Assembly: GCA_016841605.1 (NCBI GenBank)
Contig: JAENYV010000008.1
Location: forward strand, 162,138 to 226,137
Direction of reading: 5' to 3'
Origin: Dethiobacter alkaliphilus
GTDB lineage: Bacteria > Bacillota > Dethiobacteria > DTU022 > UBA8154
Length of the DNA: 64,000 nucleotides
In this document: piece after piece, positions 18,302 to 41,072 of the stretch
How positions within the stretch are numbered: position 1 is the first letter of the stretch
Layout: every line of letters starts with the position of its first letter
Notes under the pieces: generated by a model
Database searches by the model: none
The model's input: the letters and a program-made list of their open reading frames with translations, nothing else
What the model was told of the DNA's origin: nothing
Position numbers and translations under genes: made by a program

Positions 18302-18790
18302 TTGTCGGATAAGTTAAGCCAGAGTGAGATTGATGCCATGCTCAGGGGGCTGGGGCAATCGACTGAAGGCCAAAAGGGAGAGGATAGTAAGCAAAAACAT
18401 AATCTTCCGGTGGTAGAAAAGGTGGAGTTTGCTCCTTTTAAATCTGCAGGCAATGTTTCCGGGGCCCAAAAAAAGGAATTGTCTTATTTTAATCAAATTC
18501 CCATGATTATCTCAGGAGAGTTAGGGAAAGCCAACTTAACTGTGCGGGAACTTTTAAGGCTGGAGGAAGGCTCTGTTATTAAACTGGATAAACTCGCCGG
18601 CGAAAGCGCAACGATTCTGGTCAACGGACAGTACCTCGGCCTGGCAGAAGTTGTTGTCATCAATGAGAGATTTGGATTAAGAGTTACTGCCATCGGAACA
18701 GTTGATCCGCAAATAGATAAGAAGGAACCGGACGAACAAAAAGAAGCCGTTACGGAAGAAGCAGCGGACCAGGAGAGGCAGGATAAGTAG
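18302..18790 (+). CDS. fliN: FliN-family switch protein, first copy, with CheY-capture peptide
   Basis: A 162-residue protein with one SpoA/FliN domain (IPMIISGELGKANLTVRELL, SVIKLDKLAGESATILVNGQ, AEVVVINERFGLRVTAIG). The first 15 residues (KLSQSEIDAMLRGL) are the EID[AS] peptide that binds CheY-P in FliM and in Bacillus FliY. An acidic tail follows the domain. It occupies the slot between fliL and fliO that in Bacillus holds fliM-fliY-cheY. A second FliN lies at 31798. TTG start with a modest GGGG SD. Confidence 0.9.
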   Translation: MSDKLSQSEIDAMLRGLGQSTEGQKGEDSKQKHNLPVVEKVEFAPFKSAGNVSGAQKKELSYFNQIPMIISGELGKANLTVRELLRLEEGSVIKLDKLAGESATILVNGQYLGLAEVVVINERFGLRVTAIGTVDPQIDKKEPDEQKEAVTEEAADQERQDK

Positions 18791-24910: not shown

Positions 24911-25988
24911 AAGGTATTATGTTCACGATATGAAAGAAGGTATGCTTCGTATTAAGGAAGAACTTGGGCCTGAAGCCGTTATTCTGCAAAGCCGGAAAGT
25001 ACGGGGAGGTCCGGGCTTTTTCGGTTACCTGATGCCGAAAAGACTGGAGATTACAGTTGCTGTGGACGGAGCTCGCAGCGGCAATGTAAAGACAATGGAA
25101 CCGGCTTTGCGCTCAGACTTTGAGGTAAAGGTCCAGGAGATGCTGGGAGAATTGCGCAGTAATATTACCCAATTAATAGCAAGGCAACCGTCGCTTGTAA
25201 ATGAGAAGAAAACCAGGCCCGAGTTGGAGCACTGGCGGCTGCACCTGGAGAAACAGGACGTTTATCCCCAGCTTATTGAGGAGTTAATAGAAGAGCTTGC
25301 AGAAAAACTTCAGGAAGAAGTTCAGCTTTCCCATGAAATTACCAGTCTTCTTTTACATAAAAAAATCCGTAAAAGACTGAAGACGGCCCCGGAGAAGGGA
25401 GCACCCATTCAGGTTTTTATCGGACCGACAGGTGTAGGAAAAACTACGACCCTGGCCAAACTTGCAGCACGTTATGCCCTTTACCAGGGTGAGAAGGTCG
25501 GGATTATTACCATAGACCACTACCGCATTGGGGCTGTGGAGCAGATGCGCACTTATTCGGATATAACAGGACTTCCTCTGGAGGTCGTCATGACACCGAA
25601 AGAACTGCACCGAGCCATTGAAAGGTTTAACGGTTGCCAGAGGATCCTAGTTGATACTGCCGGCAGAAGTACTCTTAACATGGCTCATATACAGGAGCTT
25701 GCCGGTTACATACAGAAGCTGCCGCCGTGTGAGATTTTTCTGGTGATCAGCGCAACGACCAAAGGGCAGGATTTACAGTTAATTAATGAAAATTTCCGCC
25801 CAATGGCCTTTAATCGTCTTATTTTTACCAAGCTTGACGAAACCAATTCCTACGGGGTGCTTCTTAATGGTTGTTTTTTAACGAAATTGCCGGTAATTTA
25901 CCTGACCAATGGACAAAGTGTTCCCGATGATATATGTCTGGCGGATGTGGAGAAGATGAGCTCATTAATCCTGGGGGAGGAAGAATGA
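24900..25988 (+). CDS. flhF: Flagellar SRP-family GTPase FlhF
   Basis: A 362-residue GTPase with an N-terminal region (MKIKRYYVHDMKEGMLRI, VILQSRKVRGG), a helical N domain and the NG GTPase core: G1 GPTGVGKTTTLAKLAARYA near residue 175, ITIDHYRIGAVEQMRTYS, G3 LVDTAGRS and G4 FTKLDETNSYG. FlhF specifies number and position of flagella together with FlhG. It overlaps flhA upstream and flhG downstream. Confidence 0.97.
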   Translation: MKIKRYYVHDMKEGMLRIKEELGPEAVILQSRKVRGGPGFFGYLMPKRLEITVAVDGARSGNVKTMEPALRSDFEVKVQEMLGELRSNITQLIARQPSLVNEKKTRPELEHWRLHLEKQDVYPQLIEELIEELAEKLQEEVQLSHEITSLLLHKKIRKRLKTAPEKGAPIQVFIGPTGVGKTTTLAKLAARYALYQGEKVGIITIDHYRIGAVEQMRTYSDITGLPLEVVMTPKELHRAIERFNGCQRILVDTAGRSTLNMAHIQELAGYIQKLPPCEIFLVISATTKGQDLQLINENFRPMAFNRLIFTKLDETNSYGVLLNGCFLTKLPVIYLTNGQSVPDDICLADVEKMSSLILGEEE

Positions 25989-26878
25989 TGGTTGATCAAG
26001 CTGAACGTCTGCGGTCAATAATCCAGGAGCGTAGCTCGCGGCAAATTGTCGATAAGGGAAGATTTTCGCGAATTATTGCTGTTGCCAGCGGCAAAGGCGG
26101 GGTCGGTAAAACTAATCTTGTTGTCAATATGGGGATTATTATGGGGAAGTTGGGCCATAAGATTGTCATCCTGGATACTGATTTGGGGATGGCGAATACC
26201 GATATTCTTATGGATTTAAAACCGGTTTATACTCTTGTTGATGTTATTCAGGGAAACAAAGACTTGAAAGAAGTTCTTTTAAAAGGACCGCACAATGTGG
26301 AACTCCTACCCGGAGGATCATGTCTCCCGGAGCTTATCAACCTGGATAACCAGCAGCGGGAACAGCTTTTTTCCAGGCTTTCCTACCTGGATCAGGAGGA
26401 AAATATATTATTAATAGATTGTTCGGCAGGGATTTCCAGGGATGTGCTGTTCTTTGTGGCTTCTTCAGACGACCTGGTCCTGGTTACAACTCCTGAGCCG
26501 ACAGCAATTACCGATGCCTACGGGATTATTAAGGTTATCAACAAACACGGCTTAAAACCCAAAATTAGCGTGGTGATCAATATGGTTCATCATCTTAAAG
26601 AAGGAGAGGTCGTCTACCAGCGCATTAATAATGTTTGCCGGAAATTTCTAGATATTGGGGTTAAGTATCTGGGGAGTATTGAGTATGACCAACATGTCCA
26701 AAGAGCTGTTCTAAACTGTTATCCCTATGTTCTGCAATTTCCCCGCTCGCGTGCAACCTTGCTTACCCGGGAAATTACCCGCCGTCTTCTATCCGAAGAG
26801 GAAAAGCCTGCCAAGAAGAAGGAGGAGAAGTTCTTGCGGCGTTTTTTAACGATTTGGAATACCGGCAGTGAGGGATAA
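25985..26878 (+). CDS. flhG: MinD-like ATPase FlhG (YlxH)
   Basis: A 298-residue ParA/MinD-type ATPase. The deviant Walker A is GKGGVGKT at residues 36-43 (ASGKGGVGKTNLVVNMG), with ILDTDLGMANTDIL and LLIDCSAGISRDVL following. FlhG activates FlhF GTPase and limits flagellar number. ATG 25985 overlaps the flhF TGA (ATGATG) and has GGGGGAGGAAG upstream. The C terminus is basic. Confidence 0.95.
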   Translation: MMVDQAERLRSIIQERSSRQIVDKGRFSRIIAVASGKGGVGKTNLVVNMGIIMGKLGHKIVILDTDLGMANTDILMDLKPVYTLVDVIQGNKDLKEVLLKGPHNVELLPGGSCLPELINLDNQQREQLFSRLSYLDQEENILLIDCSAGISRDVLFFVASSDDLVLVTTPEPTAITDAYGIIKVINKHGLKPKISVVINMVHHLKEGEVVYQRINNVCRKFLDIGVKYLGSIEYDQHVQRAVLNCYPYVLQFPRSRATLLTREITRRLLSEEEKPAKKKEEKFLRRFLTIWNTGSEG

Positions 26879-30726: not shown

Positions 30727-30809
30727 AATTTTCTTTCCAACTTTTTCTTTAGAATATTGTCTATTTATGCTAATATAATATTACTTTTTGGGAAAAGGAG
30801 GTGGAAGCA

Positions 30810-31808
30810 CTGGGCAAAGATATTCTGTCACAATCTGAAATAGACTCACTAATTAAAGCGCTAAGTAGTGGAAGAATAACCGAAACGGAAAAAGAAGACG
30901 AAAAAGTTGAAGAATATCGGAATTATGACTTTCGGCGTCCCAGCAAATTTTCCAAAGAACAAATCCGTACCCTGCAGTTTCTTCATGACAATTATGCCCG
31001 GAGTCTGACTAACTTCCTTGCTGCATATCTCCGGGTTCCTGTTCAAGTTCAGCTTGCCTCGGTGAGCCAGGTTACATACGAAGAGTTTGTCTTTTCACTT
31101 CCCGTTCCCACCCTGGTAACTGTTTTTAAGATGAGTGAGGAGATGGGGAGTTCTTTGCTGGAAACAAATCCCTCCTTTGTTTTCCCCATTATTGATATTG
31201 TTTTTGGCGGGAGCGGGCAGGTTCCTAAATATTTTCGGGAATTTACAGATATAGAAATTACTGTTATGAAACAGATAAACTCCCACCTGCTGGATAACCT
31301 ACGTTACACCTGGGAGGATGTGGCAGCCCTGGTTCCCCGGGTGGAAACAATGGATATAAACCCGCAGTTCAACCAGATGTTCGCCTCTACGGAAACGGTG
31401 ATCCTTCTTACTTTTACTACTCAGATTAAAGAAAATGAAGGTTTGATTAATCTTTGCTTTCCTTATATTACCCTGGAGAAAATTATCCCGAGGCTTACTT
31501 CACAGTACTGGTTCAAACAGGCGACGCGAAAATCCTCCCGGTTAAATGAAAAAATCGTCCTGGAGCAGGTCGGAGAGATTGAGGTTGAGCTTAGCGCTGT
31601 TCTCGGCCGTACTCTTGTTACGCTGGATGATTTTCTGCAGTTCCGGGAAGGGGATATTATTCAGCTTTCACAGTCCGAAGGGGATGATCTGGATGTTCTG
31701 GTCGAAAATCAACCCTTATTTAAAGGGCAGCCGGGTGCGGTTGGTCAGCATTTAGCTGTCCAAATTACAGAGTGGATGGATAAGGAGGAAGCAGGAAGTG
31801 GCGGATAA
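30810..31808 (+). CDS. fliM: Flagellar motor switch protein FliM
   Basis: A FliM with the CheY-binding peptide DILSQSEIDSLIKAL at the N terminus, the FliM middle domain (YDFRRPSKFSKEQIRTLQFL, NFLAAYLRVPVQV, DIVFGGSGQVPKYFREFTDI) and a C-terminal SpoA/FliN domain. Start choice is unusual. The perfect SD AAGGAGGTG (30795-30803) contains GTG 30801, so that GTG cannot be served by it; the first plausible start at correct spacing is CTG 30810 (332 residues). GTG 30801 would give 335 residues with only GGGA upstream. FliN2 overlaps its 3' end by 11 bases. Confidence 0.95.
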   Translation: MGKDILSQSEIDSLIKALSSGRITETEKEDEKVEEYRNYDFRRPSKFSKEQIRTLQFLHDNYARSLTNFLAAYLRVPVQVQLASVSQVTYEEFVFSLPVPTLVTVFKMSEEMGSSLLETNPSFVFPIIDIVFGGSGQVPKYFREFTDIEITVMKQINSHLLDNLRYTWEDVAALVPRVETMDINPQFNQMFASTETVILLTFTTQIKENEGLINLCFPYITLEKIIPRLTSQYWFKQATRKSSRLNEKIVLEQVGEIEVELSAVLGRTLVTLDDFLQFREGDIIQLSQSEGDDLDVLVENQPLFKGQPGAVGQHLAVQITEWMDKEEAGSGG

Positions 31809-32190
31809 TTTTTTAACTCAGGATGAGATCGACGCTCTTCTGGGAATGAAGGAAGAAGCACAGCAAAGTTCTTCCGGTAAACAGAGCCTGTCTGAAACGG
31901 GGAAAAAAACCGATTTTCCCGGGGATTCTTCCGCTAATTTAGAGTTAATCATGGATTTCTCTTTGACACTTTCCGTTCAACTGGGAAAGAGTAAAAAAAA
32001 CTTGCAGGAGACCAGGAAGATCGGCCCGGGGGCTGTCCTTGAACTGGACAGGTTTATTAATGAGCCTGTGGATGTTTTAATTAATAATAAGCTTATCGCA
32101 CAGGGCGAAGTTGTTGTTGTCGACGAAAATTTCGGCATCAAAATCACACATATTATCAACCCCATTGAACGTGTGCGCAAGCTGATATAA
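31798..32190 (+). CDS. fliN: FliN-family switch protein, second copy
   Basis: A 130-residue FliN. It also begins with a CheY-capture peptide (FLTQDEIDALLGM), then a Ser-rich linker and one SpoA domain (LIMDFSLTLSVQLGKSKKNL, VLELDRFINEPVDVLINNKL, GEVVVVDENFGIKITHII). The GTG start overlaps fliM by 11 bases and uses AAGGAGG inside fliM, so stoichiometric co-translation with FliM is likely. Compared with the copy at 18302 it is shorter and lacks the acidic tail. Confidence 0.93.
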   Translation: MADNFLTQDEIDALLGMKEEAQQSSSGKQSLSETGKKTDFPGDSSANLELIMDFSLTLSVQLGKSKKNLQETRKIGPGAVLELDRFINEPVDVLINNKLIAQGEVVVVDENFGIKITHIINPIERVRKLI

Positions 32191-32325: not shown

Positions 32326-34749
32326 ATGGAGTTAAAGCCTGTGGAAAAAGATGTCCTTCTTGAACTCAGTAATGTCTCCATGGGCTCTGCAGCAACGGCC
32401 CTTTCCAACATGCTGAACAGGGTTGTCCGTCTTTCGCCTCCGGAAATTACGGAAACGACGACGGCAGTCTGGCAGGAGCGGCACAACAGAAGCGGAATTT
32501 TGATCCGTATTGCTTTCAAGAATGGTCTGGAAGGAGTTAATTATCTTTTTTTAGCGGAGCGGGAGGCAGCTTCCCTGGCCGGTTTGTTGCTGGGAGAAGA
32601 CGTTAGTCCGTCTCAAGCAGTGGATTTTCCTGAACTGGGCGCTATTAATGAGAGCATGGGGATCATCATGGGCTCTTATACGAATTCCCTGGCAAGTTTT
32701 CTTGGTCTGACTCTGGAACTTGACCCGCCGGAGGTAGAACAGATTAACCCGGTAGACAAGGATTTTGTAAACCTGGGATTTACGGGAACGGATCCCTGGG
32801 TGGAACTTAACTTTTCTCTGGAAATTGAACCGGATCAGACGATAAGCTTGATACAACTTTTCCCCTTTCCTTTTCTGAAGACAATTTTAACTTTACTTAT
32901 GCAAGGATTGGGAATCGATTTGCCCGAGCAGGAATCTCCTGCTCAAGAAGCTTCGCAGGCCGAGTTGGAAGAACTTTTAAGTCAAACAGAAGATTCCGAA
33001 GATACCTTAACCTCTCAAAATGTTTTTGTACCCGGGCTGGATGAATATCTGAACGATATGGAAAAAGATACTATTGCTGAAGTTAGCAATATATCTTTGG
33101 GTTCATCTGCGACAGCTCTTTCCCAGTTAGTTGACCAGCGGGTGCAGATTACTACACCGCAGGTTTCTTTGACAACGATGGAAAAGCTTCGGGAAGAGTA
33201 TCCATATCCCAGTGTTATTGCCAAGGTTAATTATCGGGAGGGACTGGAGGGAGAGAGTATACTTATTCTCCAGGAGGAAGATGCAGCACTGATCGCCGGT
33301 TTAATGATGGGGCTTCCTCCTGAGGATGTTCCTAAAAAAGTCGGAGAGATGGAAATGAGTGCGGTCAGCGAGGCCATGAACCAGATGATGGGTTCTGCCG
33401 CGACAGCCATGTCCGACTTTTTAGCCCGTAAGGTTGATATTTCTCCTCCGAATTTAAATCATGCTAATCTTCAAGAAGAAATGGTGCAGGTCAACCAAAT
33501 TGAGCAGGAAGAACCGGTGCTGCAGATATCGTTTCAGCTCGATATCGGCGATCTTTTGCAAAGCCGTTTAATTCAGGTGATCCCCTTTCCCTTTGCCAAG
33601 AAAATTACCTCTTTTCTGTTAAAGGATATGATGATCGGAGAAGAGGAGACGGAAAACAAGGATCTACCTGTTTCTCTTGATTCTCCGCCTTCTTCCGGGG
33701 GGGAATTATCCGGGGAGATCCTGAGTGAAATACAAAAGGATGCCCTGGCGGAAGTAGGCAATATTTCCCTCGGGTCTTCCGCCACGGCTCTTTCCGAATT
33801 GATTAACAAAAAGGTTAATATTACAGCTCCCCGGGTAACTTTGACGACTATGAAAGAGGTCAGCGCCAATTATCCGGTTCCCTGTCTTGTTGTTATGGTC
33901 AATTATATTAAGGGGTTAGACGGAAATAATGTACTTATTATTAAAAAAGAGGATGCGCTGGTTATTGTCGGCTTGATGATGGGGATGGAACCTCCGGAAA
34001 GGCCTCAGGAACTTGATGAGTTGGAGATTTCCGCGGTCAGTGAGGCCATGAACCAGATGATGGGTTCTGCCGCGACAGCCATGTCTGATCTTTTAGAACG
34101 GTTAATTGATATATCTCCTCCTGAGATTGTTTATAAGGATTTAAACGGGGAGAACTTAAATATTGACATTTACGATGAGGATGCTCTGCTGGTACAGGTT
34201 GCTTTCCGTATGGAGGTCGAGGGCCTCCTGGACAGTGATCTTTTGCAATTGATTCCGCTCAATTTTGCCGGGAAAATTACATCCCATCTTCTTTCAGCTT
34301 TTACCGGTGAAGATGGATACGTTTTTCCCGAACCTGTCCAAAGCGCTGAAGAAAGTGCCCTTGACGAACCAACTGTTGAGATATCGGGCTCACCGCCCGG
34401 ACTTCCCCGTAATGAGGGAGAAGAGCTCCTTTTTTCCGGTATAGAAGAAGAGGAGGCGTTTGTATCTTCTCCCCGAGAGACCATAAAGCAATTAACAGAT
34501 GACGAATATGCCAAACTAAATCTGATTCGAGATATTCCTCTGGAGATCCAGGCAGTACTGGGCAAGACGAGAGTTCCTCTGAAAAGGATTTTTTCTCTGT
34601 TGCCGGGAGAAATAGTCAGCCTTAATCGTTTTTTAGGGGAACCGGTGGATCTTTTTGCCAATCAGCGTCTGGTGGCTACGGGGGAGGTGGTTTTGGTAAA
34701 CGGACAGTTCGGTGTAAAAATTACGGAAATAATCCGTCCCAAGTACTAA
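32326..34749 (+). CDS. fliY: FliY-like protein: three CheC modules plus C-terminal FliN domain
   Basis: An 807-residue fusion. Each CheC module carries two candidate CheY-P phosphatase sites of the form [DS]-x3-E-x2-N-x22-P. Module 1: D9/E13/N16/P39 intact; the second site is degenerate (G105, E109, G112). Module 2: D248/E252/N255/P278 and S345/E349/N352/P375. Module 3: D472/E476/N479/P502 and S569/E573/N576/P599. Residues about 725-807 form a SpoA/FliN domain (IPLEIQAVLGKTRVPLKRIF, GEVVLVNGQFGVKITEII). Bacillus FliY has one CheC module and an N-terminal CheY-binding peptide; this protein has three modules and starts directly with module 1 (MELKPVEKDVLLEL), so the peptide is absent. It likely sits in the C-ring and drains CheY-P. 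Confidence 0.92.
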   Translation: MELKPVEKDVLLELSNVSMGSAATALSNMLNRVVRLSPPEITETTTAVWQERHNRSGILIRIAFKNGLEGVNYLFLAEREAASLAGLLLGEDVSPSQAVDFPELGAINESMGIIMGSYTNSLASFLGLTLELDPPEVEQINPVDKDFVNLGFTGTDPWVELNFSLEIEPDQTISLIQLFPFPFLKTILTLLMQGLGIDLPEQESPAQEASQAELEELLSQTEDSEDTLTSQNVFVPGLDEYLNDMEKDTIAEVSNISLGSSATALSQLVDQRVQITTPQVSLTTMEKLREEYPYPSVIAKVNYREGLEGESILILQEEDAALIAGLMMGLPPEDVPKKVGEMEMSAVSEAMNQMMGSAATAMSDFLARKVDISPPNLNHANLQEEMVQVNQIEQEEPVLQISFQLDIGDLLQSRLIQVIPFPFAKKITSFLLKDMMIGEEETENKDLPVSLDSPPSSGGELSGEILSEIQKDALAEVGNISLGSSATALSELINKKVNITAPRVTLTTMKEVSANYPVPCLVVMVNYIKGLDGNNVLIIKKEDALVIVGLMMGMEPPERPQELDELEISAVSEAMNQMMGSAATAMSDLLERLIDISPPEIVYKDLNGENLNIDIYDEDALLVQVAFRMEVEGLLDSDLLQLIPLNFAGKITSHLLSAFTGEDGYVFPEPVQSAEESALDEPTVEISGSPPGLPRNEGEELLFSGIEEEEAFVSSPRETIKQLTDDEYAKLNLIRDIPLEIQAVLGKTRVPLKRIFSLLPGEIVSLNRFLGEPVDLFANQRLVATGEVVLVNGQFGVKITEIIRPKY

Positions 34750-34853: not shown

Positions 34854-35336
34854 GTGACCAACAAGATTGAAACAGTATCGGAAGTCCAGATGGTGGCCTT
34901 CAAGCTGGAAAAGGAAGAATTTGCCGTAAATATTCATCAGGTCAGGGAAGTTCTGAAAATGAGCCGGGTTACCCCCCTTCCTCAATCTGCTAATTATATT
35001 GAAGGGGTTATCAACCTGCGCGGTGAAGTGATTCCTGTTGTGGATTTGCGGAAGCGTTTTGAGTTGCCTGTGGGAGAAAGGGGAGAACAGACCCGGATTA
35101 TTATTGTGGAAATACAGAATAGCAATGTAGGATTGATCGTCGATTCCGTCACAGAGGTTCTGCGTTTTTCTTCTTCGGCAATACAACCTCCTCCGGCCAG
35201 AGTTGCCGGTACCCGTACAGATCTTATTAAGGGAGTCGGCAAGGTGGCAGACCGGTTGCTTATTATCCTTAACCTGGAAAAAATTCTTACAACGGAAGAG
35301 GTTATTTCTCTGGAGGAAGTTACCATAGATAGCTGA
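34854..35336 (+). CDS. cheW: Chemotaxis coupling protein CheW
   Basis: A 160-residue CheW: QMVAFKLEKEEFAVNIHQVR, then PQSANYIEGVINLRGEVIPV and VDLRKRFELP, with VGLIVDSVTEVLRF. CheW bridges receptors and CheA. The GTG start follows AAAGGGGTGATAAG. A 104-base gap to fliY contains no clear terminator, so co-transcription with the switch genes is likely. Confidence 0.97.
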   Translation: MTNKIETVSEVQMVAFKLEKEEFAVNIHQVREVLKMSRVTPLPQSANYIEGVINLRGEVIPVVDLRKRFELPVGERGEQTRIIIVEIQNSNVGLIVDSVTEVLRFSSSAIQPPPARVAGTRTDLIKGVGKVADRLLIILNLEKILTTEEVISLEEVTIDS

Positions 35337-35388
35337 TCCGATATCTTGTTCGCCAAAACGTTTTTTGTTTAAGAAGGGGGGAGAGGCG

Positions 35389-37611
35389 ATGGAAGAGTAC
35401 AGAGATCTCTTTTTAGCGGAAGCGGGAGAGCATCTGCAAAATATGACGGATCGTATGCTGGAATTGGAGAAGGACCCAACTGCCACAGAGCACCTGACGG
35501 AGATGTTTAGAGCCGCTCATAGTTTAAAAGGCATGTCCGGAACCATGGGTTATGAGTTAATTATGGAACTTACTCATGAAATGGAGAGTCTTCTGGACAA
35601 GCTGAGATCGGGAGAAATAGCCGTAGAAACGGGGTTGATAAACCTGCTTTTTGAAGCGGTTGATCTGGTCCAGTTAATGATCGGCAACCTGGATAATCGG
35701 GAAAGCTTTTTTACGGAGGTTAAGGCTCTGGAGAAAAAACTCCGGGAGTGGCCTGCTCAGGATGAAGGAGACGAACGGAAACTTCCGCGGGAAGAAGGCC
35801 GGCCGATAAGCAAAGAATCGTCTGCTGCGGAAGATAATCCGCAGGAACAGGGAACCGGGGCGGATATGGTCAAAGATAAACTTATTAATTCGGAACTGAA
35901 TGAATTTGAGAAAGAAATGCTCAAGGATGCTGTTTTTCGGGGCGAAAAGGCTTATCTTATTAATGTCCGGCTGCGGGACGGTTCCCTATTAAAATCCGTT
36001 CGCTCTTATATGGTCCATAAAGCCCTTGAGAAACAGGGAGAGATAATTAAAACCCAGCCGTCCTTACAAGCCATGGAAGAAGAAAAATTTGATCGGGATT
36101 TTTCCTTTTTACTACTTGGAAAGCCGGATTTGGAAATTACTGCCTTGAAAAAAAAGATCGAGAGTATTGCTGAAATTGAAAAGGTAACTGTATCATCTTT
36201 TATCATCGACGATCAGCAAGAAGCGACAACAACTGCCCCGGCAAAAGAAACGCAGGATTCCGCCGGCGGAAGCCTTAAGAAGCAAGAAAAAGCAGCAATA
36301 CAAGCCTCTGAAAATACTGTCAATACTGAAACAGAGGAGAAAACAAAAAAATCCTTTAACGGAGAAGATAACGGGGATTTAGCTCAGGTTCGCAAAAAGG
36401 CAAGGATTTCTACTTTAAACCGTTCCGCTGAGAAGACTGTGCGGGTAGAGACAGCCAAGCTTGATGCTCTGGTTAACCTTGTGGGAGAATTGATAATTAA
36501 CCGCACCAGAGTGCTGGAACTGGGTAAAGAACTGAAAAATGAACAGCTGGAAGGTTCCCTGGAGCAGCTGGAAAGGATTACAACGGAACTCCAGAGTGCA
36601 GTTATGACCCTACGTATGGTTCCCATTAAGCAAGTGTTCGACCGTTTTCCCCGCATGGTGCGCGATCTTAGCCAGGACAAGGATAAAGAAGTCGAGTTGA
36701 TCATCTCCGGAGAAGAGACGGAATTAGATCGCACGATTGTCAACCAGGTCGGAGATCCCCTGGTTCATCTGCTAAGAAACGCAGTAGACCATGGGATTGA
36801 AGACGAAGAAGAAAGACGAAGAAAAGGAAAAGACCCGGTCGGAAAAATTAGATTAGAGGCGCATCACGAGGGCAGCCATGTTGTCGTAAGTGTGGAAGAT
36901 GACGGAATGGGCATCGACCCTGAAAGGGTAAAAGAAAAAGCATTGCAAAAAAAGATCATTACCAGGGAAGAAGCAGAAATAATGGGGGCCGATGAAGCTG
37001 TCCGCCTGGTTTTCCGCAGCGGTTTCAGCACGGCAGCGAAAGTGACGGATGTTTCCGGTCGTGGTGTGGGGATGGATGTTGTTAAAACTGCTATAGAAGC
37101 TTTAAATGGGACGGTAGAAGTAAAAAGTGAGCAGGGAAAGGGATCCAAGTTTGTTCTCAGATTGCCTCTGACCCTGGCGATTATCAGAACCCTGATGGTG
37201 AAAGCCGGCAAAGAAGTTTATGCCATTCCTATTGAGGCTATTCGGGAAAATCTTTTTGTTGAACCGCAAGAGATACGGACTATACAACAGGGTAAGGTTA
37301 TCACGCTCAGGGAAGAGGTCCTGCCGCTAAACTGTTTAAAGGAAGGCCTTGGAATGGGTTTCTTTGAGGAACAGGATGTATATCCCGTTGTGGTTGTTCA
37401 GGCGGGGGATAGGAAAGTCGGCTTCATGGTCGATGAACTGATGGGCCAGCAGGAAGTTGTTATTAAATCCCTGAGTACTTTTATTAATGATATTAAAGGG
37501 ATTGCCGGAGCAACAGTTTTGGGAGACGGGAGGGTGACTCTTATCCTGGATGTAGCCGGCTTGCTTGAAGATGGGAGGGTTAATGTTGGGAAAGAGAATC
37601 TTAATCACTGA
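35389..37611 (+). CDS. cheA: Chemotaxis histidine kinase CheA
   Basis: A 740-residue CheA with P1 to P5. P1 has the phosphorylated H44 in RAAHSLKGMSGTMG. P2 (about 185-275) holds the CheY/CheB-docking fold. P3 begins at VRVETAKLDALVNLVGELI, P4 shows N, G1 and G2 boxes (LLRNAVDHGIEDEEER, VEDDGMGIDPERV, VSGRGVGMDVVKTAIE), and P5 is CheW-like (VMVKAGKEVYAIPIEA-type region). ATG 35389 follows AAGGGGGGAGAGG. It overlaps cheY by 29 bases. Confidence 0.98.
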   Translation: MEEYRDLFLAEAGEHLQNMTDRMLELEKDPTATEHLTEMFRAAHSLKGMSGTMGYELIMELTHEMESLLDKLRSGEIAVETGLINLLFEAVDLVQLMIGNLDNRESFFTEVKALEKKLREWPAQDEGDERKLPREEGRPISKESSAAEDNPQEQGTGADMVKDKLINSELNEFEKEMLKDAVFRGEKAYLINVRLRDGSLLKSVRSYMVHKALEKQGEIIKTQPSLQAMEEEKFDRDFSFLLLGKPDLEITALKKKIESIAEIEKVTVSSFIIDDQQEATTTAPAKETQDSAGGSLKKQEKAAIQASENTVNTETEEKTKKSFNGEDNGDLAQVRKKARISTLNRSAEKTVRVETAKLDALVNLVGELIINRTRVLELGKELKNEQLEGSLEQLERITTELQSAVMTLRMVPIKQVFDRFPRMVRDLSQDKDKEVELIISGEETELDRTIVNQVGDPLVHLLRNAVDHGIEDEEERRRKGKDPVGKIRLEAHHEGSHVVVSVEDDGMGIDPERVKEKALQKKIITREEAEIMGADEAVRLVFRSGFSTAAKVTDVSGRGVGMDVVKTAIEALNGTVEVKSEQGKGSKFVLRLPLTLAIIRTLMVKAGKEVYAIPIEAIRENLFVEPQEIRTIQQGKVITLREEVLPLNCLKEGLGMGFFEEQDVYPVVVVQAGDRKVGFMVDELMGQQEVVIKSLSTFINDIKGIAGATVLGDGRVTLILDVAGLLEDGRVNVGKENLNH

Positions 37612-37948
37612 TGATACCGCTTTTATGCGGATGACCTTACGTAATGTTTTGGCAAAGAATGGGTATGAGATAGTTGGTGAAGCTGAGGATGGGCTGCAGG
37701 CTGTAGAAAAGTATATGGAGATCAAGCCCGACCTCGTGACAATGGACATTACCATGCCCAATATGGATGGTATTACGGCCATAAAAAAAATTATAGAAAA
37801 AGACCCGGGTGCCAAAATTGTTGTGGTCAGCGCAATGGGACAGAAAGCCCTGGTTATTGAAGCGCTAAATTCAGGAGCAAAGGATTTTATCGTCAAGCCT
37901 TTCCAACCTGATCGCATTGTGGAAGCTCTGCAGAAAGTGGTCGGTTAA
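37583..37948 (+). CDS. cheY: Chemotaxis response regulator CheY
   Basis: A 121-residue single receiver domain: acidic pocket D10-D11, phospho-acceptor D55 (VTMDITMPNMDG), S83 and K105 (FIVKPFQ). In Gram-positives CheY-P binding to the switch favours counterclockwise running. ATG 37583 follows GGGAGGG closely; TTG 37586 is an alternative. It lies inside the cheA 3' end. Confidence 0.96.
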   Translation: MLGKRILITDDTAFMRMTLRNVLAKNGYEIVGEAEDGLQAVEKYMEIKPDLVTMDITMPNMDGITAIKKIIEKDPGAKIVVVSAMGQKALVIEALNSGAKDFIVKPFQPDRIVEALQKVVG

Positions 37949-37986: not shown

Positions 37987-38589
37987 ATGATCAAAAAAAT
38001 TGATGATAATATGCTTGATGTACTTAAAGAGCTGGCCAATATAGGTCTGGGGAACGCCGTTACTTCTCTTTCTCAAATGTTGGGAGAAGAAAAGATCAAT
38101 ATGGACGTTCCCATTGCTACACTGATTCCTCTCCAGGATGTTCCGGATTTTCTGGGGGGAGGAGAGGTTGCGGTGGCCGGAGTATATATCGAAGCCACAG
38201 GCGATGTTAATTTAACCGTTCTTTTTGTCCTTTCCCTGGACAGTGCGTCAAACCTGATTACAAGCCTTATTCCGGGAACGGAAGGAGAAATGGACGAGAT
38301 GGGTGTTTCCGTGCTTATTGAGGTGGGAAATATCCTGACGGCATCTTATTTGAATGCCGTTTCGATGATGACGGATCTTCAACTTTTACCATCTCCTCCC
38401 CAGATTGCTGTCGATATGTCCGGTGCGATTATATCTACCGTAATGGCGGAAGCTCATCTTATTGATGATGAAGTGGTTCTCCTGCAGACGACGCTCAACA
38501 CGATGGAAAGCCAGATAGGCGGAAATATTCTTATTCTTCCGGATTATGGGGCCTTAGAGAAAATTTTTGCCCTTCTGGGACTCGGGTGA
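37987..38589 (+). CDS. cheC: CheY-P phosphatase CheC
   Basis: A 200-residue CheC with both phosphatase sites: D11/E15/N18 (LDVLKELANIGLGNAVTSLS) and S108/E112/N115 (SVLIEVGNILTASYLNAVS). It dephosphorylates CheY-P and pairs with CheD, encoded 5 bases downstream. With FliY it brings the predicted number of CheC-type sites in this cluster to seven intact. Confidence 0.96.
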   Translation: MIKKIDDNMLDVLKELANIGLGNAVTSLSQMLGEEKINMDVPIATLIPLQDVPDFLGGGEVAVAGVYIEATGDVNLTVLFVLSLDSASNLITSLIPGTEGEMDEMGVSVLIEVGNILTASYLNAVSMMTDLQLLPSPPQIAVDMSGAIISTVMAEAHLIDDEVVLLQTTLNTMESQIGGNILILPDYGALEKIFALLGLG

Positions 38590-38593
38590 TCCC

Positions 38594-39103
38594 ATGGCAA
38601 ACAATATCATTGTAGAAAACAATATTATTAAGGTAAAAATTGCTGATCTGGCTGTACAAAAAGAACAGGGAATTATTATCACTGTAGGGCTGGGTTCGTG
38701 TGTGGGAATAGCACTGTATGATTTTGCAACCAAAGTCGGAGGTCTTGCTCACATTCTTCTTTCAGACAGCACCCAGTTTAAAAATAAGGGGGAATCTTTT
38801 AATAAGGCGAAATTTGCGGATACAGCCATTCCTTTTCTGGCCGGAGAGATGGAAAAATTGGGTGGAAGAAGAACGCGCTTTCAGGCAAAAATAGCCGGGG
38901 GAAGCCAGCTTTTTGCTTTTCAAAATAAAAATACAAGTGTTGGAGAGAAAAATGTTGAAGCTGTCATCAGGACACTTAAAGAGATGGGGATACCTATTTT
39001 AGGACAGGATGTGAGAGGAAATTACGGTCGGACAATGAGGCTGTTTATTGATTCCGGCAAAGTACTGATTTCTACGGTTGGAAAAGGAGAAAAAGATCTG
39101 TAA
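38594..39103 (+). CDS. cheD: Chemoreceptor glutamine deamidase CheD
   Basis: A 169-residue CheD with the catalytic Cys36 in VGLGSCVGIALYDF, His in GGLAHILLSDS, and the AKIAGGSQLFAF strand. CheD deamidates receptor Gln residues and binds CheC to raise its activity. ATG 38594 follows GGGTGATC; the longer frame into cheC is not used. Confidence 0.95.
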   Translation: MANNIIVENNIIKVKIADLAVQKEQGIIITVGLGSCVGIALYDFATKVGGLAHILLSDSTQFKNKGESFNKAKFADTAIPFLAGEMEKLGGRRTRFQAKIAGGSQLFAFQNKNTSVGEKNVEAVIRTLKEMGIPILGQDVRGNYGRTMRLFIDSGKVLISTVGKGEKDL

Positions 39104-39174
39104 TTTTTTTATGAGTCTGCCATTGATCTTTCTTCAAAATGTAAAAGAAATTGTTGTTTTGAGTGGGGATGATA

Positions 39175-40269
39175 ATGAGAGGGAAAAAAATAAAAATACT
39201 CGTTGTAGATGATTCTGCATTTATGCGCAAATTTATCGGTGACATTATCAGCAGGGATAATGAGTTGGAACTGGTTGGTACTGCCCGCGACGGAGAAGAT
39301 GCCCTGAAGAAAAAAGATCTTCTGAAGCCGGATGTTTTAACCCTGGATCTGGAAATGCCCAGGTTGGATGGTCTGGCCACACTTCGGCGGTTAATGGAGA
39401 CGGAACTTCTTCCCGTTATTATGGTGAGCAGCCATACCCGAAAAGGGAGCGAAATAACCCTGGAAGCCCTCTCTGCAGGTGCTGTAGATTTTGTGACCAA
39501 ACCTTCTCTTTTTAAAGGGGAGAGCGCAGAAGAATTAAAAATTATGCTTCCGCAAAAGATAAAAGCTGCCGCAGGAGCGCGCCTTTATCCACGGGCAGGA
39601 ATGCCCGTAAAGTCAGAGGAAGATAAAACGAAAAAAGTTTTTTCCGAAAAACTGAGTAAACCTTTCCGTCATTCTGCGCTAGATAGGTCGCTGTGCAATG
39701 TTGTGGCGATCGGCGCCTCCACAGGCGGGCCTCGTGCCCTGGAAGATGTGATCCGAGGGTTTCCCGCCGACTTGCCTGCCGCGGTACTGATTACGCAGCA
39801 TATGCCTCCGGGTTTTACGGAATCCTTTGCCAAAAGACTGGACAGGGTGTCCGGCTTGAAAGTTCGGGAGGCCCGCGGTAAAGAGAAAATTTTGCCGGGA
39901 GAGGCTTATGTAGCTCCGGGAGGCTATCACCTTATCGTGGAAGCGGGTCAAACAGTACTGAGCAGTACTCCTCCGGTCCAACACGTTCGCCCATCGGCAG
40001 ATGTAATGATGGAATCAGTTGCGCAGTTTTTCGGCCCTGGGGCCATCGGTGTAATCCTTACCGGAATGGGAAGGGACGGAGCTGACGGGATGGCGCACAT
40101 AAAAAAAAATGGGGGGAGAACCATTGCTCAGGACCCCTCTACTGCTGTTATCGCCAGTATGCCCCAGGCAGTGATAAAAAACGGCCTGGCGGATGAAATT
40201 GTTCCCCTGGACCGGATTGCTGCCGGCGTTTCGCGCTTGCTTAATAACAAAAATGGAAAGGAGGGGTAA
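39175..40269 (+). CDS. cheB: Chemotaxis protein-glutamate methylesterase CheB
   Basis: A 364-residue CheB: an N-terminal receiver domain with D12-D13 and phospho-acceptor D58 (LTLDLEMPRLDGLATL), a polar linker, and a C-terminal methylesterase with the triad motifs IGASTGGPRALE (Ser), LITQHMPPGFTESFA (His) and LTGMGRDGADGMAHI (Asp). It removes receptor methyl groups. ATG 39175 is placed 6 bases after GTGGGG. It is immediately followed by cheR. Confidence 0.98.
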   Translation: MRGKKIKILVVDDSAFMRKFIGDIISRDNELELVGTARDGEDALKKKDLLKPDVLTLDLEMPRLDGLATLRRLMETELLPVIMVSSHTRKGSEITLEALSAGAVDFVTKPSLFKGESAEELKIMLPQKIKAAAGARLYPRAGMPVKSEEDKTKKVFSEKLSKPFRHSALDRSLCNVVAIGASTGGPRALEDVIRGFPADLPAAVLITQHMPPGFTESFAKRLDRVSGLKVREARGKEKILPGEAYVAPGGYHLIVEAGQTVLSSTPPVQHVRPSADVMMESVAQFFGPGAIGVILTGMGRDGADGMAHIKKNGGRTIAQDPSTAVIASMPQAVIKNGLADEIVPLDRIAAGVSRLLNNKNGKEG

Positions 40270-40271
40270 CC

Positions 40272-41072
40272 TTGTCTCCGGAAACCTGGGATTATATGCG
40301 CTTTAAAGCAGCATTTTTCAAGAAAACAGGTTTAGATCTGGAGCGCTATAAGGACAAGCAGATGGAACGGCGTATTTTGCAGTTGATGCAAAGGGAGAAT
40401 AAGCCTGATTTTCGGCTTTTCTTTGAATATCTTGCCGGTTCTCCACCAGCCATGGAGCGTTTTATGAACTACCTGACCATCAATACTTCAGAGTTTTTCC
40501 GCGATGAAAAGGTTTACAAGCATCTTCAAGAAAAAACTTTTGTTGAGTTGCTGCAAAGAGAACAGGGGCTTCTTAAGATTTGGAGTGCCGGTTGTTCGAT
40601 AGGAGCGGAACCTTATACCATAGCTATAGCTCTAAACATTTTGAAGTCCCTGGGACGAATCAAGATCATTGCCAGCGACATAGATGATAAAGCACTGGAG
40701 ACGGCGAAAAAAGGGCAATATTCGCGCAAACAGCTTGGAAAAACCCGTGAAGAAATTATCAGAAAATATTTTTCAACAGATGGAGATAATTATTGTATAA
40801 TCCCGGAAATCAAGCAAGTTGTTACTTTTAAACGCCACAACCTGCTGACTGATTCCTCTTTTCCGGATTGTCACATGATCTTCTGCCGAAATGTTTTTAT
40901 CTACTTTAAGCCGGAAACCCAGGAATTTCTCCTGGAGCGTTTTTCAGGAGCTTTAAAAACCGGTGGATATCTGGTTATCGGTTCCGCTGAATATATCAGT
41001 AACCCGGCGAATTTCGGTTTGACCAAGTGCTTTAACACTATTTACCAGAAAATGAATAATCGAAATATTTAA
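40272..41072 (+). CDS. cheR: Chemotaxis protein methyltransferase CheR
   Basis: A 266-residue SAM-dependent methyltransferase. It has the N-terminal helical domain (MERFMNYLTINTSEFFRDEK) and the catalytic domain with SAM motif KIWSAGCSIGAEPYTIAIAL and IIASDIDDKALETAKKGQYS, ending in MIFCRNVFIYFKPETQ. It methylates receptor Glu residues. TTG follows AAAGGAGGGG 2 bases after cheB. It is the last chemotaxis gene before a terminator. Confidence 0.98.
   Translation: MSPETWDYMRFKAAFFKKTGLDLERYKDKQMERRILQLMQRENKPDFRLFFEYLAGSPPAMERFMNYLTINTSEFFRDEKVYKHLQEKTFVELLQREQGLLKIWSAGCSIGAEPYTIAIALNILKSLGRIKIIASDIDDKALETAKKGQYSRKQLGKTREEIIRKYFSTDGDNYCIIPEIKQVVTFKRHNLLTDSSFPDCHMIFCRNVFIYFKPETQEFLLERFSGALKTGGYLVIGSAEYISNPANFGLTKCFNTIYQKMNNRNI

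Follow-up and report, generated by a model that had tools for sequence, protein, structure and literature searches.

A FliY flagellar-switch protein with three tandem CheC modules, and EIDALL-type peptides on separate FliN proteins, in Dethiobacter alkaliphilus

Introduction

The FliY proteins of Bacillus subtilis and T. maritima (PRK08119; structure 4hyn) combine a C-terminal SPOA domain with one N-terminal CheC module containing two E/N sites, are encoded next to fliM and replace FliN (PMC6946799). An N-terminal CheY-binding motif has been named, in a paper on H. pylori, as a feature distinguishing the B. subtilis protein (PMC8809382), and EIDALL is described as the motif by which FliM and FliY "of all motile bacteria" bind CheY-P (PMC9126983). 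Genomes with both FliN and FliY are reported to be uncommon, and in those named as having both, Helicobacter, Campylobacter and Leptospira, FliY has been reported to be devoid of phosphatase active sites (PMC6946799). Other related proteins are the CheC/CheX phosphatases, which share the fold and the active-site motif and are not fused to SPOA, and the two-module switch proteins of the B. cereus type (PRK06782), in which tandem CheC modules precede SPOA and the N-terminal peptide is absent.

The protein described here is encoded in a stretch of 64,000 nucleotides of Dethiobacter alkaliphilus DNA, hereafter the window (contig JAENYV010000008.1). It resembles the B. subtilis and T. maritima proteins in its SPOA domain, CheC sites and fliM neighbour, but it has three CheC modules in place of exactly one, it begins directly in the first of them with no N-terminal EIDALL, and it coexists with FliN, since fliN1 is adjacent and a second gene, fliN2, is also present. 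Coexistence with FliN is shared with the Helicobacter, Campylobacter and Leptospira proteins, from which it differs in having five intact phosphatase sites. Like the two-module proteins, which are also found in other families of the class (Dethiobacteria), it has tandem CheC modules plus SPOA and no N-terminal peptide; unlike it, they contain two modules, derived from separate duplications. Differently from the CheC/CheX case, its modules are fused to SPOA, and the genome has a separate cheC as well.

Results

The window contains a long flagellar-chemotaxis cluster, in which some gene names were assigned from gene order (Table 1). The order is motA, motB, fliL, fliN2, fliO, fliP ... flhA, flhF, flhG, ycgR-like, fliA, flgF/G, and the cluster continues with fliM, fliN1, fliY, cheW, cheA, cheY, cheC, cheD, cheB and cheR. 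Four of the encoded proteins contain SPOA, namely FliM, FliN1, FliY and FliN2.

Table 1. Coordinates of fliY, its parts and neighbouring genes in the window.
Feature	Position	Strand	Remarks
fliN2	18302..18790	+	162 aa, LSQSEIDAMLRG peptide, between fliL and fliO
fliM	30801..31808	+	N-terminal LSQSEIDSLI peptide
fliN1	31798..32190	+	130 aa, separate FliN, N-terminal FLTQDEIDALLG peptide
fliY	32326..34749	+	807 aa; CheC(A)-CheC(B)-CheC(C)-SPOA
CheC module A	32332..32901	+	aa 3-192; site 1 intact, site 2 degenerate
Degenerate site 2 of module A	32638..32661	+	G105, E109, G112
Peptide-like stretch ASQAELEELLSQ	32950..32985	+	aa 209-220, A-B linker; resembles EIDALL
CheC module B	33049..33621	+	aa 242-432; both sites intact
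CheC module C	33721..34293	+	aa 466-656; both sites intact
SPOA/FliN domain of FliY	34522..34734	+	aa 733-803; probable C-ring anchor; PF01052
cheW	34854..35336	+	
cheA	35365..37611	+	Hpt, P2, kinase, CheW-like domain
cheY	37565..37948	+	
cheC, separate	37987..38589	+	200 aa
cheD	38567..39103	+	
cheB and cheR	39163..41072	+	

The fliY gene is a single open frame of 807 codons. Its product matches the Pfam CheC family PF04509 in six stretches (E 4.7e-67) and FliMN_C, PF01052, in a single domain (E 1.7e-20); the NCBIfam FliY model PRK08119 gives 692 bits in three stretches against a cut-off of 218, and PRK06782, the model of the two-module switch protein, gives 549 bits, under its cut-off of 681. 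A full-length CheC-module HMM, built in this analysis, finds three complete modules, called A, B and C, and AlphaFold2 predicts three CheC folds, with pLDDT of about 87, 93 and 91 respectively, and disordered linkers; in this model, for which window and locus proteins were aligned, the relative placement of the domains is not resolved (pTM 0.38). Among solved structures Foldseek ranks T. maritima FliY first (4hyn; target TM 0.90), and the predicted CheC fold also matches CheC 1xkr. An earlier, sequence-only reading had proposed an 807-residue protein with three tandem CheC modules, six sites, five intact and one degenerate, and one FliN domain; Pfam, HMM and site scan confirm this description, and the domain search that it suggested returned three modules, not one.

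Thus the PRK08119 score, the C-terminal SPOA domain and the CheC modules with D/S-E-N-P sites identify the gene product as a real FliY, in the broad sense, with a tripled CheC module. An assembly artefact or a recent tandem duplication was rejected, since the modules are 30-51% identical and three genomes share the order A-B-C; a wrong start codon hiding an N-terminal peptide was also ruled out, as the frame upstream of the ATG holds just 9 extra codons before a stop (816 aa). A SPOA-only isoform produced from an internal translation start has been reported for Shigella Spa33 (PMC4832279); for FliY, four relatives share no conserved internal start that has a good ribosome-binding site and would give such an isoform. 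In the whole genome the other PF04509 matches form one pair, corresponding to the separate cheC. A CheX-like domain is located elsewhere in the genome, on a 326-aa frame (G000:C9:16958-17209, L195).

The [DS]x3Ex2Nx22P sites of the window FliY begin at residues 9, 105, 248, 345, 472 and 569; five of the six read D/S-E-N-P, and the second site of module A reads G-E-G-P. Module A is 34% identical to B and 30% to C, and B and C are 51% identical to each other. Module C has D/S, E, N and P intact in every family relative, and module B keeps them in all three genomes of the window genus. The dN/dS values between the window and G002, a genome of the same genus, are 0.30 for A, 0.11 for B, 0.09 for C and 0.09 for SPOA, to be read as comparative, not absolute, values, synonymous sites being near saturation. 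They indicate that module A evolves about 2.5 times faster than B and C, under weaker constraint, and that purifying selection on B and C is on par with that on SPOA.

The sites in the relatives bear on whether all modules hydrolyze CheY-P. The catalytic N of module A site 2 is absent in 6/6 module-A relatives, while E and N of site 1 are kept in five of the six; in the sister genus D of this first site is replaced by E, and one member, G014, also lacks the E. In module B, N of site 1 is lost in G006, from another genus of the same family, and in G008. Not every module must therefore be catalytic, and the extra modules might be CheY-P binders or spacers, which would buffer CheY-P near the rotor or distance the catalytic module from the ring, leaving hydrolysis to C and perhaps B. 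All these substitutions, together with a dN/dS of A about 3 times that of B and C, argue for this explanation, which we consider possible but clearly not the leading one, because B retains both sites throughout the window genus, almost all catalytic residues are retained in both modules of FliYs that acquired two modules independently in other families, and B and C are constrained like SPOA. Thus, of the three phosphatase modules previously suggested, the CheC modules are all there, but no relative has both sites of A alive, and the set is probably better described as two plus one degenerating module; the likely role of A is that of a spacer, a binder of CheY-P or a phosphatase of weak activity.

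A second departure from the Bacillus protein concerns the docking peptide. FliYs of the class open with a CheC module or with SPOA itself, with no N-terminal EIDALL, and in the intact loci the adjacent upstream FliN carries an EIDALL-type peptide, as window FliN1 does. FliN2 also carries such a peptide, has a charged C-terminal tail, and has relatives across the class; it lies between fliL and fliO, the usual place of fliM-fliY. At L138 and L165 the FliN peptide is present, though these loci were first scored as lacking it; a few exceptions, such as the FliNs of L221 and L225, are short and have no peptide. Separate FliNs bearing the peptide found on FliY in other Bacillota were observed at class loci L037-L063 and L137-L166.

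In 72 FliY loci of other Bacillota (Bacillus, Clostridium, Thermincola, Syntrophomonas and others) FliY itself bears the peptide and has no FliN gene beside it; L077 and L107, with a degenerate or variant peptide on FliY and again no adjacent FliN, bring the non-class loci to 74. The exception is a B. cereus-like pair (L177, L178), with a two-module FliY, no peptide and no adjacent FliN. A FliN search of 199 Bacillota returned full-length, peptide-bearing short FliNs from class members only, among the matches listed; the alignments of the remaining short FliNs leave out the peptide region, which does not prove that they lack it. Taken together, these patterns suggest that the clade passed the usual CheY-docking tag of FliY to separate neighbouring FliN proteins. 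Unlike Bacillus FliY, to which the earlier reading compared it, the window protein has no N-terminal CheY-binding peptide; here the peptide sits on the separate FliNs.

The ASQAELEELLSQ stretch in the A-B linker was considered as a retained CheY-docking site and rejected, because it scores only 9.4 bits, against 26-32 for real EIDALL peptides, and is not conserved in G002, G006 or G001; scoring above shuffled linker and predicted with low confidence to be helical, it is left as a weak hint. B. subtilis FliY is also a partner of FlhG (PMC12826062), and the move of the docking peptide off FliY could matter for FlhG too; flhG is found in the same cluster as fliY, at 25934-26878.

FliY frames of about 800 aa were surveyed in 100 relatives and in 98 genomes of the class, and were found only in the window genome (G000), G002 and G006, each with three modules. 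The three-module form, corresponding to 3/98 class genomes, is thus found only in the window genus and in one sister-genus species. Outside the class, none occurs among the matches listed from an even draw of 398 Bacillota (a single phylum in the release used). Among the best-scoring matches of this draw all FliY frames longer than 520 aa come from the class, and the other listed Bacillota proteins have one-module length, about 360-480 aa; this survey rests on the best ~150 of 260 matching genomes, and weak-scoring exceptions could be missed. The confinement to a small clade supposed earlier is consistent with these counts, as is the supposition that the form might be undescribed, since no account of a FliY containing several CheC modules was found among the open papers searched.

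The same gene slot, across the class, is occupied by FliYs with 0, 1, 2 or 3 CheC modules. Two-module proteins are common there and occur in two Bacillales genomes, those of the B. cereus-like pair, where PRK06782 matches just under cut-off; the zero-module, SPOA-only form is found in G012, G020, G033, G060, G082 and G096. A SPOA-only protein was seen in the FliY slot at loci L218, L219, L220, L221, L222 and L224. The step up from a one-module Bacillus FliY, as it had been presented, is real in its end point of three modules, but it is graded, and the three-module FliY is rarer than, yet continuous with, the two-module ones.

A tree of 72 CheC modules resolves three orthologous sets within the family. 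Set C (support 97/91) takes in the lone module of every one-module family member; set B (98/99) contains the window, G002, G006 and the first modules (m1) of G001 and G008; set A (100/99) includes four sister-genus species besides the window and G002. Since a tree of neighbouring genes unites the two genera (87/100), the distribution of the sets is most simply explained if A-B-C was present in their common ancestor, with later loss of A in G001, of B in three sister-genus species and of all modules in G020, the other genera of the family keeping C alone. A common origin of every multi-module FliY in a single ancestral duplication was rejected, as an AU test excluded N-terminal modules as one clade (p 4.5e-6); duplications hence happened more than once, and two-module forms arose repeatedly. 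A derivation of A from B is compatible with the same test (p 0.37), although A lies on long branches and its exact source is uncertain.

Module number could also be nearly neutral, tandem CheC copies being gained and lost by unequal recombination with little effect on chemotaxis. Such turnover would account for counts of 0, 1, 2 and 3 within one family, for the loss of B in several genera and for that of A in G001; we consider it unlikely, given that B and C have long diverged and are still catalytically intact under strong purifying selection, that FliYs with two modules occur widely across the class and that the zero-module forms coincide with missing cheY.

Concerning this last point, in class FliYs with at least one module and more than 2 kb of downstream sequence, cheA and/or cheY come after. 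Among genomes with a zero-module FliY, no che genes are found in 12 kb downstream in G012 and G096, nor in 2.4 kb downstream in G033; in G082 (L224, L231) cheW, cheA, cheD and cheR are at the locus, where no cheY or cheC was detected. The G012, G033, G082 and G096 genomes gave no CheC-family matches. CheC modules thus appear to track cheY, the zero-module FliYs with enough downstream sequence being without cheY there; this is a locus-level association based on few independent losses, with several genomes incomplete and kinship among genomes uncorrected. The retention of SPOA where the CheC modules have gone speaks for modules that work on behalf of CheY and are dispensable for ring building.

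Discussion

The sequence shows which domains and sites FliY contains, where the peptides lie, how the genes are ordered, how the modules are related and how they go with cheY; these data lead us to propose, with a probability of roughly 65%, that the window FliY is a variant of the rotor-bound CheY-P phosphatase, in which CheY-P docks on neighbouring subunits and mainly modules B and C act. The C-terminal SPOA domain would build FliY into the flagellar C-ring alongside FliM and the two separate FliNs, with the three CheC modules hanging off SPOA via flexible linkers. CheY-P would be captured by the EIDALL-type peptides of FliM, FliN1 and FliN2, not by FliY, and dephosphorylated in trans at CheC sites on adjacent FliY subunits. 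Most of the hydrolysis would fall to B and C, with their four intact sites; module A, with one intact and one dead site and its faster evolution, probably plays one of the lesser roles indicated above. Module number may be adjustable by evolution between 0 and 3, modules being lost with cheY and repeatedly expanded where chemotaxis is kept.

Against this proposal, the separate cheC could carry out much of the CheY-P hydrolysis; moreover, some relatives within the family get by with a single module, and the degenerate sites of A, and of B in G006 and G008, show that a module need not be catalytic. The position of cheC and cheD just downstream of fliY raises another explanation, in which the FliY modules took over the adaptation role of CheC-CheD, at the receptor or at the motor, instead of being a motor phosphatase. 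An intact separate cheC, retained beside cheD in genomes with this arrangement, makes this explanation very improbable; it is less so for G045 and its relatives (L061-L063), where cheD and a two-module FliY are present and cheC is undetected at the locus.

The three modules may sharpen adaptation, make up for the dilution of FliY by two FliNs, or simply persist. A more specific and doubtful proposal is that the clade has split the classical FliY, leaving docking to the two FliNs and hydrolysis to a FliY with tuned module number; with three FliN-type positions per FliM shared by FliN1, FliN2 and FliY, tripling would restore the site count of an all-FliY ring. One- and two-module relatives likewise have separate FliNs, so that compensation for dilution by FliN is not obligatory. 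If the split were true, docking and erasing of the switch signal would be separately adjustable.

The displaced docking peptide and the series from zero to three modules are more informative than the tripling itself. Indeed, the clade departs from all three published statements considered here, namely EIDALL on all FliYs, rare coexistence of FliN and FliY, and absence of active sites from the coexisting FliYs of the named groups. It offers a natural 0/1/2/3-module series at one position in the gene order, and it places the docking peptide and the phosphatase on separate subunits; the role of motor-located versus other phosphatase in chemotaxis thereby becomes directly testable.
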